From the NCBI GenBank assembly GCA_027037705.1, contig JALVYZ010000482.1, positions 1 to 5,642 of the forward strand: 5,642 nt of DNA. The letters are read 5' to 3'. Of this stretch, positions 2,227 to 5,642 are shown piece after piece (the stretch's first letter is position 1; each line of letters begins with the position of its first letter). Below the pieces are notes generated by a model. It was not told where the DNA came from. It made no database searches and saw only the letters and a list, made by a program, of their open reading frames with translations. A program made the position numbers and the translations under genes. The stretch comes from a bacterium (lineage in GTDB: Bacteria > DYJV01 > JALVYZ01).

Positions 2227-2970
2227 TTATTTTAATTTTATCCACTCCCTTAAATTTTGAATAATAAAAATCTTAATACCCGTTAATTTTGTAATATTAC
2301 TTATAAGCCTAAAAAGTTTATCCTCGTTCGTAAAGTCTTTAGCTCTTAAAGCTAAAGCAACTTTTTCTTTTTTATAAGAATAAATTATTTCTTTAATTTT
2401 TTTAGCATTTTTAAAACCATAAGCCATAAAAACAACTAAATCACTATTGCTAAAAATATCTTCAATCACATCCTTGTAATGGTTCATATTTATTGCAACA
2501 CTAACCTTTTTTCCGTATTTATTGGCTATCAAATGGACTTTTTCCAAAAGGTTCACAAAAAGTTTTAAATATATCTCCTTTTTTTCTTTAAAATCATGAA
2601 GTATATGGGGCTCGAGATCAAGATGAACATTATAACCACTCTTGAATATATATATAAGTTTGCTTCTAATTTCATGCCACTTTTCAGAAAATATGTATGT
2701 TGGCTCGCTTAAAACTATATCTATCTTTTTACCACTTTTAGAAAGTTTTCTTACCAAATCTCTTATATCTTTTCTCTCAACAAAAGGCCTGTAAGAAAGC
2801 TCAATTCTTTTAATGTCTTCTGTTTTTATAAATTTTACAATCTCTGACATTTTTAGTTTCTCAAAACAGCCAGACCATGCATATACTCCTAAAGAGAGTT
2901 TTTTAGAGTAGGATGAACTACCAAATAAAAAAAGAGCAATCTGAAAAAGAAAAATAGTCTTAATTTTCAT
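2227..2970 (-). CDS. Secreted TIM-barrel-like protein, putative glycan-active enzyme, third gene of the polysaccharide cluster
   Basis: The 247-residue product starts with Lys-containing M-K-I-K, a hydrophobic core (about 5-17) and S-S-S-Y-S-K, which fits a Sec signal peptide cleaved near residue 22. The remainder alternates short hydrophobic strands with amphipathic helices, as in a TIM barrel: L-G-V-Y-A-W (27-32), R-I-E-L-S-Y (55-60), I-D-I-V-L-S-E-P (83-90), N-V-H-L-D-L-E-P-H (114-122), V-S-V-A-I-N (156-161), L-V-V-F-M-A-Y (178-184), V-A-L-A-L-R (204-209) and I-F-I-I-Q-N (234-239). D118-x-E120 at the end of the fourth or fifth strand is where retaining glycosidases of GH18-like folds carry catalytic acids, but I see no clear family signature. 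The ATG overlaps the end of the glycosyltransferase gene by 11 nt, so expression is coupled. The inferred role is cutting, trimming or guiding the exported polysaccharide in the periplasm. A non-catalytic binding barrel is also possible. No strong terminator is visible in the 73 nt between its stop and the IS remnant. Confidence 0.6.
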   Translation of the reverse strand: MKIKTIFLFQIALFLFGSSSYSKKLSLGVYAWSGCFEKLKMSEIVKFIKTEDIKRIELSYRPFVERKDIRDLVRKLSKSGKKIDIVLSEPTYIFSEKWHEIRSKLIYIFKSGYNVHLDLEPHILHDFKEKKEIYLKLFVNLLEKVHLIANKYGKKVSVAINMNHYKDVIEDIFSNSDLVVFMAYGFKNAKKIKEIIYSYKKEKVALALRAKDFTNEDKLFRLISNITKLTGIKIFIIQNLREWIKLK

Positions 2971-4264
2971 CTTTTAATATCTTTGAAACTTTCCATGGAT
3001 TCCATTTGTCGTAAAAAGAAGCTTTAAAAAAAAGTTCTGCAATATATGAAAATGTTCTAACTGACCTCATGAAAATTCCTGTATAAAAAGGCATTAGAGG
3101 AAGAAGTAGCCAAAGAGACTTCTCACTTTTATTAAAGGTATCACCAAGAGCAATTCTTGCTATAAAATACTCAAAAATGTTCAAGATTATATACAAAAAA
3201 TAATTAACTATAAAAATTGTAAAAAGACCCATTTTAAAGAAAAAGATAAGCTGCAATATATAGATTATCCACTTAAAGTCAAGAATAAAGTTAAAAAAGA
3301 TGTTGTCCAATAATGTTAGTGTATTAAAAAGCTCGAAGTTTTTATTAAATGGAGATAGCATATCCCTGTGTCTCCTCAACCTGAACCTAATAAGAGACCG
3401 ACTCCAACGATACCTTTGTTTTATTAACCCTTTTATGGAAATGGGCACAGATGTATATGCAATTGCTGTTGGCTCGTGGAGAATTTTAAATTTCAACTTT
3501 CTCATTCTCAAAACTACATCTCCATCAAGTCCAGGGCCCACATCCCATCCTTTTAGTCTCAATAAAACATCCCTTCTGAAAGCACCGAAGGCACCTGATA
3601 TTATCCTTAAAATTTTAAGAACTGAGTTAACGATTCTTCCCATAGTTATGGTTTTTAAATACTCTAACGCCTGTAACCTTGTAAGAAGGCTATAATCTAT
3701 ATTTTTAACCCTAATATCACCACCAACAGCCCCAATCCCATCATACATATAAAAGGGAAATATCACATTTTCTATGGCATCCTCTTTTAAATGTGTATCA
3801 GCATCAAGATGCACCACAAATTTACCTGTTGCAAATCTCAGAGAGAGATTTGCAGCAGAAGCTTTCCCCCCCCTTCTTTCATTTCTAAAGTAGTTGTTTA
3901 TCATTCCTTTCTTTTTTAAAGCCCTCAAGATTTGTAGAGTATCATCATCTGAACCATCATCAACCAGAATTATTTCTATATTTTTGTAAGTCTGCTGCTT
4001 TATAGATTCAACAAGAGCTGATAAATGTTTACCCTCATTCTTCCCCGGAGCTATGATAGTAACAAGAGGTTGTTCTTTGCAAAGGGCAAGCTTTATATCT
4101 CTAATTTTATATCTGTCCTTCCACCTATGAAATAAAAAAATAGGGACACATACCATATCTAACAATACAAATCTTGGAAGATCAAAGAAAAAGAACGGCC
4201 AGAACATAATTATCAATTGATCCAATGAATGGTTTAAAAACCAACTTATGATATTAGTAATCAT
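2960..4264 (-). CDS. Membrane processive family 2 glycosyltransferase (polysaccharide synthase)
   Basis: The 434-residue inner-membrane enzyme has the GT-A signatures in order: V-D-D-G-S-D-D (101-107) for UDP-sugar binding; R-G-G-K-A-S-A-A-N (131-139); the D-A-D metal-binding motif in H-L-D-A-D-T (152-157); G-A-F-G-A-F-R-R (224-231); L-D-G-D (246-249) at the position of the catalytic-base E-D-x-D motif; and Q-R-Y-R-W (283-287), the Q-x-x-R-W motif of processive synthases such as BcsA, NodC, HasA and PgaC. Hydrophobic segments flank the catalytic domain: about residues 14-46 before it, and about 322-345, 347-368 and 384-400 after it. This arrangement builds a chain on the cytosolic face and extrudes it through the membrane. 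There is no C-terminal PilZ domain, so any nucleotide control must come from another protein, probably the TackOD1/GGDEF product encoded 9 nt upstream. The sugar cannot be deduced. The glycine pair 132-133 is encoded by an unbroken G8 run. The start ATG at 4264 has only a weak Shine-Dalgarno. Confidence 0.88.
   Translation of the reverse strand: MITNIISWFLNHSLDQLIIMFWPFFFFDLPRFVLLDMVCVPIFLFHRWKDRYKIRDIKLALCKEQPLVTIIAPGKNEGKHLSALVESIKQQTYKNIEIILVDDGSDDDTLQILRALKKKGMINNYFRNERRGGKASAANLSLRFATGKFVVHLDADTHLKEDAIENVIFPFYMYDGIGAVGGDIRVKNIDYSLLTRLQALEYLKTITMGRIVNSVLKILRIISGAFGAFRRDVLLRLKGWDVGPGLDGDVVLRMRKLKFKILHEPTAIAYTSVPISIKGLIKQRYRWSRSLIRFRLRRHRDMLSPFNKNFELFNTLTLLDNIFFNFILDFKWIIYILQLIFFFKMGLFTIFIVNYFLYIILNIFEYFIARIALGDTFNKSEKSLWLLLPLMPFYTGIFMRSVRTFSYIAELFFKASFYDKWNPWKVSKILKDEN
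3866..3873 (-). repeat. G8 homopolymer inside the glycosyltransferase gene
   Basis: Eight G in a row on the minus strand encode the end of an Arg codon and two Gly codons (AGG GGG GGG AAA) in the conserved R-R-G-G-K motif. The frame is intact at this length. Gain or loss of one G would truncate the protein about one third of the way along. It is the longest G/C homopolymer in the window. Confidence 0.9.
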
Positions 4265-4273
4265 TATAACTTT

Positions 4274-5642
4274 TTATTCGTTGCCTTTTTTTAAATTTTT
4301 TAAAAGTTCTTCAACTAATTCGTCCGGTTGCTTAATATTATTATTAGAAATCTCAACCATTGAGCTTTCAATAGTAGGTTTAATGCCAACATTCTCTTCA
4401 ATGAGTTTATAACTTTCCATTACCAAACGTTTATTCACTAAATCTGCCCTTTTAATAGATGTATGGGGAAGGAGAAGTAAAATTGTTCCCTCATTCAAGA
4501 TGGTCAGAACATCACTCTTCCTTGTTATCACTTTTATTAGAGCTCCTAATTCCTTTAAAAGCCTTTCTGTTTTTCGACCAAGCTTTGAATATATATCATT
4601 CAAATTTACAATTCGGAAGGCAACTACAGATGATTTGACACCGTACCTCTTCGATCGCTCTAACTCTATTTGAAGAAAAGTTAAGAAGGAATTATATGGC
4701 AAAACATTTAATCCCTCACGTAGTGCTTTTAGTAGTGGACTTTCAAAACCATAAATTGCAAAGCTTTCTCCTACAGATGTCAGAGTATATATTTTAATTA
4801 TTTGAACTATCAAATCTTCAGGAAAGCTTTCTTTCTCACAATTGAAACAGATTGTTTTAACATCAGGCTCCTGCGTGACAAATCCACAGTTATTGCACTT
4901 ATGTATAAACGCAGGTTTGTCGTAATCAACTCCAAGACCTTTGAGCATTTTATTGCACTTAGGACATACAAGCTGTCCATTCTTTATAAAATCACTTTCT
5001 GGACCAACATACGCACAAGGGAAGTGGTGTATAAGATTTTCCTCGAAAAGGTTGGCAGAACTACAGTTTGGGCAAACTTCTATAAAGTTCAAAAAAGAGC
5101 AGTGGCATCTATTGCAAAAGTGAATTTTTTCAAAGAAATCTCCTTTAATAGAGCCATTTTCTTCTAAAAAGTCAAGTGTATTATACAATGCGTAATCCTC
5201 TTCTAAGAAAAAACACTCAATTGCTGGATAGGTTAGTCCGAAAAATGATGTTCTATCCCTCACTGGTCCTAATCTTTTATCCCTTGTGAATATAAACCTT
5301 AAGATCCTTAAAAATAAGTCGTCCTCCCTTTCGTCCTCTGTAGGATTAATTTTTCTAATGGCATCATTGATTCTATCTATCTTTTTCAGCTCAAACCTGA
5401 AAGCATCTTCATCTAACTCATTAGGGCTGAACACCGCATCAGCCATGGCTGCAATCCTTGAAGATAATTTCCCCTCAACAACGAAAATTATAGGTTTAAG
5501 ATAAATCTTGGGAGATCCTAAGTGTCTTATATTCCTGCATACCTCTTCTAAAAAATCATTTGAATTGCCCGCAACAACAAAAGCTTCAGGTTCTTTCAAG
5601 TTATTATTAATTTCATTTCTCTCTAACTTCTTATAGTGAAAT
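4274..5642 (-). CDS. TackOD1 zinc-ribbon protein with degenerate GGDEF domain (5' end beyond window)
   Basis: The frame is open to the window edge (reading ...F-H-Y-K-K-L-E-R-N-E-I-N-N-N-L-K-E-P), so the gene is 5'-partial. The TTG at 5599 is only an internal possible start, used here for numbering. Residues about 5-75 look like a small alpha/beta, receiver-like segment. Residues about 90-265 match the TackOD1 output domain: L-R-I-L-R-F-I-F-T-R; C-x-x-C (162/165) and C-P-x-C (176/179) around L-N-F-I-E-V; H-H-F-x-C (191-195); V-G-P-E-S-D-F; V-C-P-K-C (211-215); G-V-D-Y-D-K-P (223-229); and two further C-x-x-C pairs (235/238, 251/254), giving several zinc-binding knuckles. Residues about 300-400 have GGDEF-domain structure, but the signature position reads N-E-G-T-I (369-373), directly before L-L-L-L-P-H-T. 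Diguanylate cyclase activity is therefore very unlikely. It could be a c-di-GMP or protein-binding regulator. Its place directly ahead of the synthase gene suggests it controls or scaffolds polysaccharide synthesis at the inner membrane. Confidence 0.82.
   Translation of the reverse strand, partial: FHYKKLERNEINNNLKEPEAFVVAGNSNDFLEEVCRNIRHLGSPKIYLKPIIFVVEGKLSSRIAAMADAVFSPNELDEDAFRFELKKIDRINDAIRKINPTEDEREDDLFLRILRFIFTRDKRLGPVRDRTSFFGLTYPAIECFFLEEDYALYNTLDFLEENGSIKGDFFEKIHFCNRCHCSFLNFIEVCPNCSSANLFEENLIHHFPCAYVGPESDFIKNGQLVCPKCNKMLKGLGVDYDKPAFIHKCNNCGFVTQEPDVKTICFNCEKESFPEDLIVQIIKIYTLTSVGESFAIYGFESPLLKALREGLNVLPYNSFLTFLQIELERSKRYGVKSSVVAFRIVNLNDIYSKLGRKTERLLKELGALIKVITRKSDVLTILNEGTILLLLPHTSIKRADLVNKRLVMESYKLIEENVGIKPTIESSMVEISNNNIKQPDELVEELLKNLKKGNE

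Follow-up and report, generated by a model that had tools for sequence, protein, structure and literature searches.

The window, that is, the whole stretch of DNA analysed here, spans contig C482 (5642 bp) from end to end, in a bacterial genome fragmented into 496 contigs, and it carries part of a putative exopolysaccharide system consisting of a TackOD1 regulator, a family 2 glycosyltransferase (GT2) and a TIM-barrel protein. Open reading frames on the minus strand fill positions 2227-5641, at 4274-5641 (455 aa), 2960-4264 (434 aa) and 2227-2970 (247 aa), the first of which runs open into the contig end. As an earlier note on this DNA had described, the three genes are tightly packed, with a 9-nt gap (4265-4273) and an 11-nt overlap (2960-2970). 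The gene contents also agree with that note: Pfam recognises TackOD1 and GGDEF in the first product and Glycos_transf_2 in the second, and structure prediction gives a TIM barrel for the third. The features are as follows.

4274..5641, minus strand: gene for the TackOD1/degenerate-GGDEF regulator (protein 1), of which 455 aa can be read, the N-terminus being at the contig end or just past it
4781..5332, minus strand: TackOD1 domain, from the Pfam family match, with presumed zinc sites
4310..4690, minus strand: degenerate GGDEF domain, from the Pfam match (aa 318-444) and alignment
4511..4522, minus strand: I-site motif RKSD (R374 to D377), from alignment, 5 residues ahead of the lost signature, with a third Arg at R405
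2960..4264, minus strand: gene for the GT2 membrane polysaccharide synthase (protein 2), from Pfam Glycos_transf_2 and conserved residues, no PilZ
2227..2970, minus strand: gene for a secreted TIM-barrel protein (protein 3), a putative glycoside hydrolase resembling GH18 and the PgaB C-terminal domain, from the AlphaFold2 model and fold matches
2611..2619, minus strand: Asp-Leu-Glu closing strand beta-4, from the model strands, conserved in stand-alone and channel-fused copies

Since the window is a complete contig, the gene cluster was cut by the assembly. In locus L033, on a contig of a Desulfurellaceae metagenome-assembled genome, the gene order is OEP - HlyD - TackOD1 - GT2 - TIM, and the TackOD1 protein is 80% identical to that of the window; in L088, from a second genome in the phylum of L033's genome, all five genes are intact and they overlap. 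At the end of contig C454 of the window's own genome are an OEP gene and the start (36 codons) of an HlyD gene, and the OEP and HlyD domains were confirmed by Pfam. Because C454 ends in this way and the relatives have OEP and HlyD upstream of TackOD1, C454 and C482 are very probably adjacent, with about 1 kb of HlyD missing between them. The GT2, the HlyD adaptor and the TolC-like channel, co-encoded in L033, L088 and other loci, are divided between C454 and C482 in the window genome. The earlier note had counted three genes in the module, which is wrong, as OEP - HlyD - TackOD1 - GT2 - TIM/GH (glycoside hydrolase) makes five; its suggestion of further genes past 5642 was right, given OEP and HlyD upstream in the relatives and on C454.

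To define strong TackOD1 matches we used a profile score of at least 130 bits. The same GT2 subfamily is found in the TackOD1 gene run in 13 of the 14 bacterial genomes with a strong TackOD1, and a GT2 adjoins TackOD1 in all 15 bacterial plasmid records that carry TackOD1, which span Enterobacterales, Vibrionales, Aeromonadales, Hyphomicrobiales and Rhodobacterales. Most of these plasmid neighbourhoods were read directly and the remainder were judged from coordinates; HlyD follows in nearly all of those read. Conversely, wherever the window GT2 is matched over 80% or more of its length in a plasmid record, TackOD1 is adjacent; this holds for all 15 such records, among them a second Photobacterium locus (L096) and a Sinorhizobium medicae plasmid (L089). 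Among 386 sampled genomes, GT2 matches that cover the query end to end (starting no later than residue 18 and ending no earlier than residue 421) were confined to strong TackOD1 carriers: 8 of the 9 have one, and the remaining 377 genomes have none. Co-occurrence in other genomes, on which the earlier note had staked its proposal, was thus borne out. Searches of the phyla around G114 and G064 yielded no additional loci.

The linked proteins have also been inherited together. The distance matrices of TackOD1 and GT2 correlate with r 0.83, compared with a maximum of 0.23 in 2000 permutations, and the HlyD matrix correlates at 0.86 with TackOD1 and at 0.83 with GT2. The groupings shared by the trees cross taxonomy: the Rhodobacterales loci L043 and L092 fall with gammaproteobacteria, and the Rhodobacterales locus L041 with Hyphomicrobiales. 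Judged from these sequence comparisons, TackOD1, GT2 and HlyD move as one horizontally transferred unit.

Protein 2 matches Glycos_transf_2 with 96.5 bits and contains D103, D154-x-D156, D247 and Q283-R-x-R-W287; these hallmarks of processive GT2 enzymes (D, DxD, D, QRxRW) are invariant across the TackOD1-linked set. No PilZ domain was matched on the window GT2 by Pfam at E values up to 1, as the earlier note had stated. The nearest NCBIfam family is PgaC_IcaA (TIGR03937), with 158.6 bits against an equivalog cut-off of 422.3, and the XrtG-associated and NodC synthases come next by score. In a tree with PgaC, five other GT2s and the GT2 of pSymB that adjoins HlyD and was taken as BgsA, the TackOD1-linked GT2s form one clade (ultrafast bootstrap 89). 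A motif in the GT2 C-terminal tail was considered as a docking site for TackOD1 and is not claimed here; the PgaC tail is similar and contains Pro. The GT2 gene of L033 has, at about 8092, an in-frame TAG in place of the Trp of its relatives, which may be a sequencing error, a pseudogene or a strain variant.

Protein 1 matches TackOD1 (PF18551) with 182.6 bits against a curated cut-off of 32, followed by a weak GGDEF match (26.9 bits, cut-off 23.8). Its TackOD1 domain has the presumed zinc sites C176, C179, C190, C193, H205, C209, C226, C229, C249, C252, C265 and C268, and in the alignment these 12 Cys/His positions are conserved in at least 25 of the 26 GT2-linked proteins; a published census of the domain described 11 conserved cysteines plus an HxxC motif (PMC5847659). 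A sequence search of the PDB with the protein gave no significant match. At the position of the GG[DE]EF signature the window protein reads NEGTI, which is not that of an active diguanylate cyclase, and the signature is absent from all 23 linked proteins with an alignable domain. The RxxD motif that lies 5 residues before the lost signature is retained in 13 of these 23, the window protein included, each time together with an Arg or Lys at +31. The earlier note was right that a GGDEF fold persists here without its catalytic signature, but it understated the case, since the I-site is kept as well. With R374, D377 and R405 and no catalytic signature, the protein has the sequence features of a degenerate-GGDEF receptor of the PelD/BcsE type and may bind cyclic di-GMP (c-di-GMP), in line with the same note's view that the presumed nucleotide sensor is a separate zinc-ribbon protein.

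The domain attached to TackOD1 differs among the loci. REC-TackOD1 proteins are encoded in two GT2-HlyD operons (L041:8341-10035 and L093:5942-7819), in which the same type of synthase would be under phosphorelay control. These two operons adjoin Hpt and histidine-kinase-type genes. L073 has a TackOD1 form without GGDEF, and on the S. medicae plasmid a stand-alone TackOD1 core of 81 aa (L089:8209-8451, 45.9 bits) comes after GT2-HlyD. This mini-TackOD1 represents a minimal zinc-ribbon unit. Because TackOD1 is constant while the input domain varies, we take it to be the output module that faces the synthase. L096 has a LapD-type gene ahead of its operon, and L087 and L066 are bordered by GGDEF or GGDEF/HD genes; these neighbours support a link to c-di-GMP.

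Protein 3 has no confident Pfam family. Its AlphaFold2 model is a TIM barrel (mean predicted local distance difference test, pLDDT, 86.5; predicted template-modelling score 0.83) and its N-terminus is signal-peptide-like, which bears out the secreted TIM-barrel protein proposed earlier. The best fold matches are GH18 enzymes and the C-terminal glycoside hydrolase domain of PgaB (GH153), with Z scores of 17-19 over about 220 residues; the GH18 profile (PF00704) did not match the window protein and gave 13.4 bits, against a cut-off of 29.6, for the fused domain of L069. In the model, strand beta-6 ends in M-x-Y, and the Asp-Leu-Glu at the end of beta-4 sits where GH18 enzymes have their catalytic DxE. 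The TIM domain, with a conserved [HQ][LF]D[IL]E motif, occurs on its own in Methylocystis (L040), and in six loci (L066, L067, L068, L069, L071 and L087) it is joined to the C-terminal end of the TolC-like protein. This fusion ties the putative hydrolase to the export channel. A separate gene for the secreted protein, as the earlier note had it, is therefore correct for the window but is a local feature, the same domain being a C-terminal part of the channel in several other bacteria. The channel proteins L033:3890-5374, L065:3973-5895 and L088:9570-11537 have a C-terminal region that lacks the catalytic DxE; such C-termini of the Desulfurellaceae type may be degenerate remains of the hydrolase barrel, present alongside the separate intact copy.

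We consider it probable that the three genes of the module seen in the window are the end of a five-gene exopolysaccharide operon, that its synthase is under TackOD1 control and that c-di-GMP is sensed by the I-site domain. The GT2 would polymerise the chain and extrude it across the inner membrane, and the polymer would pass through the HlyD periplasmic adaptor and the TolC-like outer-membrane channel to the cell surface; from the gene order of the module, export is probably through such a conduit. The TIM-barrel protein, predicted to be a periplasmic hydrolase, might trim the polymer or clear the channel. The cytosolic zinc-ribbon TackOD1 protein would turn the synthase on. In the window version, by analogy with BcsE and PelD, the dead GGDEF domain would bind c-di-GMP through RKSD and R405 and relay the signal through TackOD1 to the GT2; in the relatives the input would be REC or no extra domain, with TackOD1 kept as the output part. 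The earlier note had placed the sensor in the cytosol, the synthase in the membrane and the glycan enzyme in the periplasm, and this analysis supports that arrangement. A wider statement, that bacterial TackOD1 is a dedicated output module for one GT2 subfamily, docking to these synthases and switching them, with different inputs grafted onto it and with an HlyD/TolC-type conduit of the synthases' own whose channel can carry the hydrolase, we hold to have about an even chance of being correct. Since the GT2 is near PgaC and the TIM barrel near GH18 and the PgaB C-terminal domain, there is a faint hint from the sequences that the product may be an N-acetylhexosamine polymer.

Several observations weigh against control of the synthase by c-di-GMP through TackOD1. 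RxxD is present in 18 of 19 active cyclases, a biased sample, so that its retention in the linked proteins may partly reflect ancestry, and one whole alphaproteobacterial branch is without the I-site, so that c-di-GMP cannot be the universal input. Genome G136, the ninth strong TackOD1 carrier, has the I-site and lacks the GT2 subfamily, and no GT2 was found in the single archaeal TackOD1 neighbourhood read. The AlphaFold2 model of the TackOD1 protein, made from a two-sequence alignment, has a pLDDT of 36 and is unusable. The strong TackOD1-degenerate-GGDEF gene of G136 (L072, 7287-8468) has the I-site RGVD, and as an exception it may reveal another partner. The loss of the I-site from a whole branch would also fit a TackOD1 that the GT2 cannot do without as a structural subunit or chaperone, its zinc ribbon acting as a scaffold required for folding or for recruitment to the membrane, while the GGDEF remnant decays and senses nothing; the bare zinc-ribbon core beside the GT2 in S. 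medicae and the GGDEF-less form in L073 are what such a subunit would look like. We regard this as unlikely, although worth keeping in mind, because the full I-site triad is retained in 13 proteins from which the catalytic signature is wholly gone and because the attachment of REC to TackOD1 in L041 and L093 argues for signal input.

It is most improbable that TackOD1 regulates something else, such as transcription or pili, and merely travels with a polysaccharide cassette. Archaeal TackOD1 has been reported at type IV pilus loci (PMC5847659) and the module does move horizontally, but tight or overlapping genes across distant lineages, matching trees and near-exclusive co-occurrence are unexpected of a passenger. 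We also find it very unlikely that the GT2 transfers single sugars to lipid or protein without making a polymer, HlyD and OEP exporting something else. The score below the NCBIfam PgaC cut-off leaves some room for this, but the processive residues are invariant in the linked set, the nearest families (PgaC/IcaA, XrtG-associated and NodC) are synthases, and in six loci the channel protein carries a polymer-hydrolase fold. Regulation of a polymer-forming synthase by TackOD1 remains the preferred explanation.

The system was compared with the known synthase-dependent systems, and its assignment to Pga, Bgs, Xcs, Alg or Pel was rejected, as at least one defining feature is wanting for each. The earlier note had called the arrangement unlike Bcs, Pga or Alg; this is too strong, since parts are shared with all three, but the arrangement as a whole matches none of them, and no named system was matched, as that note had also said. 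The closest export architecture is that of Xcs, the cyanobacterial cellulose system (XcsA-XcsB-XcsC plus TolC; PMC12430437), which shares with the window system a GT2, an HlyD-like adaptor, a TolC-like channel, a glycan hydrolase and the absence of BcsB/BcsC-type export. It differs in that XcsA carries PilZ, XcsC is an endoglucanase and there is no TackOD1; the link of Xcs to TolC is an unvalidated model and its genes lie outside one operon (PMC12430437).

The closest sensor logic is that of PelD and BcsE. PelD also has a degenerate GGDEF whose RxxD and further Arg (R367, D370, R402) bind c-di-GMP to activate a polysaccharide synthase, but it is a membrane protein with GAF that serves a GT4, whereas the window regulator is a predicted cytosolic zinc-ribbon protein beside a GT2. 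BcsE is likewise a separate soluble degenerate-GGDEF protein that binds c-di-GMP at its I-site and joins a GT2 synthase complex; it binds BcsQ/R and the PilZ of BcsA, whereas the window GT2 is without PilZ and the output part would be TackOD1. Sinorhizobium BgsB-BgsA, which makes a mixed-linkage glucan, resembles the window system in having a GT2 with a neighbouring HlyD-like gene and c-di-GMP control without PilZ. In BgsA, in contrast, the protein's own C-terminal tail senses c-di-GMP (PMC5567048), there is no TackOD1 neighbour within the stretch read, and the pSymB GT2 does not join the TackOD1-linked clade (it scores 62.6 bits, where a linked GT2 reaches 504). In Pga, which makes poly-N-acetylglucosamine, PgaC is the nearest curated GT2 family and the PgaB C-terminal domain folds like the TIM protein, but the PgaC score is far under the cut-off, HlyD/TolC-type export replaces PgaA, and neither PgaD nor a deacetylase domain was found in the window-type system. 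Alginate Alg8/Alg44 similarly combines a GT2 with an HlyD-like periplasmic domain under c-di-GMP control; in Alg44 the PilZ is fused to that domain, whereas in the window system sensing would sit on a third protein. No PilZ was matched on the HlyD proteins of L033, L068 and L039, the window genome's own HlyD being incomplete.

TackOD1, described as an output domain and with a function termed obscure in the 2018 census (PMC5847659), hereby gains a specific and testable partner. In the literature searched, which covered neither subscription journals nor preprints, only that census names TackOD1, and it reports no link to a synthase. Spread over several bacterial phyla, the loci define an apparently undescribed family of exopolysaccharide systems that are synthase-dependent and horizontally mobile, which suggests an undescribed bacterial route for the control and export of slime polymer. 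They also provide operon-encoded examples of GT2-HlyD-TolC export, the cyanobacterial cellulose counterpart being a model with genome-scattered genes (PMC12430437).

The module DNA is 76-79% identical to that of L033 and L088. Two sampled genomes represent the phylum of the window genome, and G540 (Desulfurellaceae), which carries L033, is not one of them; because such identity is shared with genomes of another phylum, it would be explained by horizontal transfer or by mis-binning of the contig, and the reading of the module is independent of this choice. Transposase remnants flank the five-gene module, at 1621-1791 of the window and at 3028-3668 of L065 (C454). The downstream remnant, in the window, is a helix-turn-helix fragment resembling the start of an IS21-type transposase, and the upstream one is an integrase-core fragment; both flanks share a 30-bp AT-rich stretch with 28 of 30 positions identical. 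Downstream of the module, the minus strand also carries a HEPN_RiboL-PSP gene (120-629) and, at 626-1315, part of a GmrSD_N/DUF262-type gene; together (120-1315) the two are possibly a broken defence pair.

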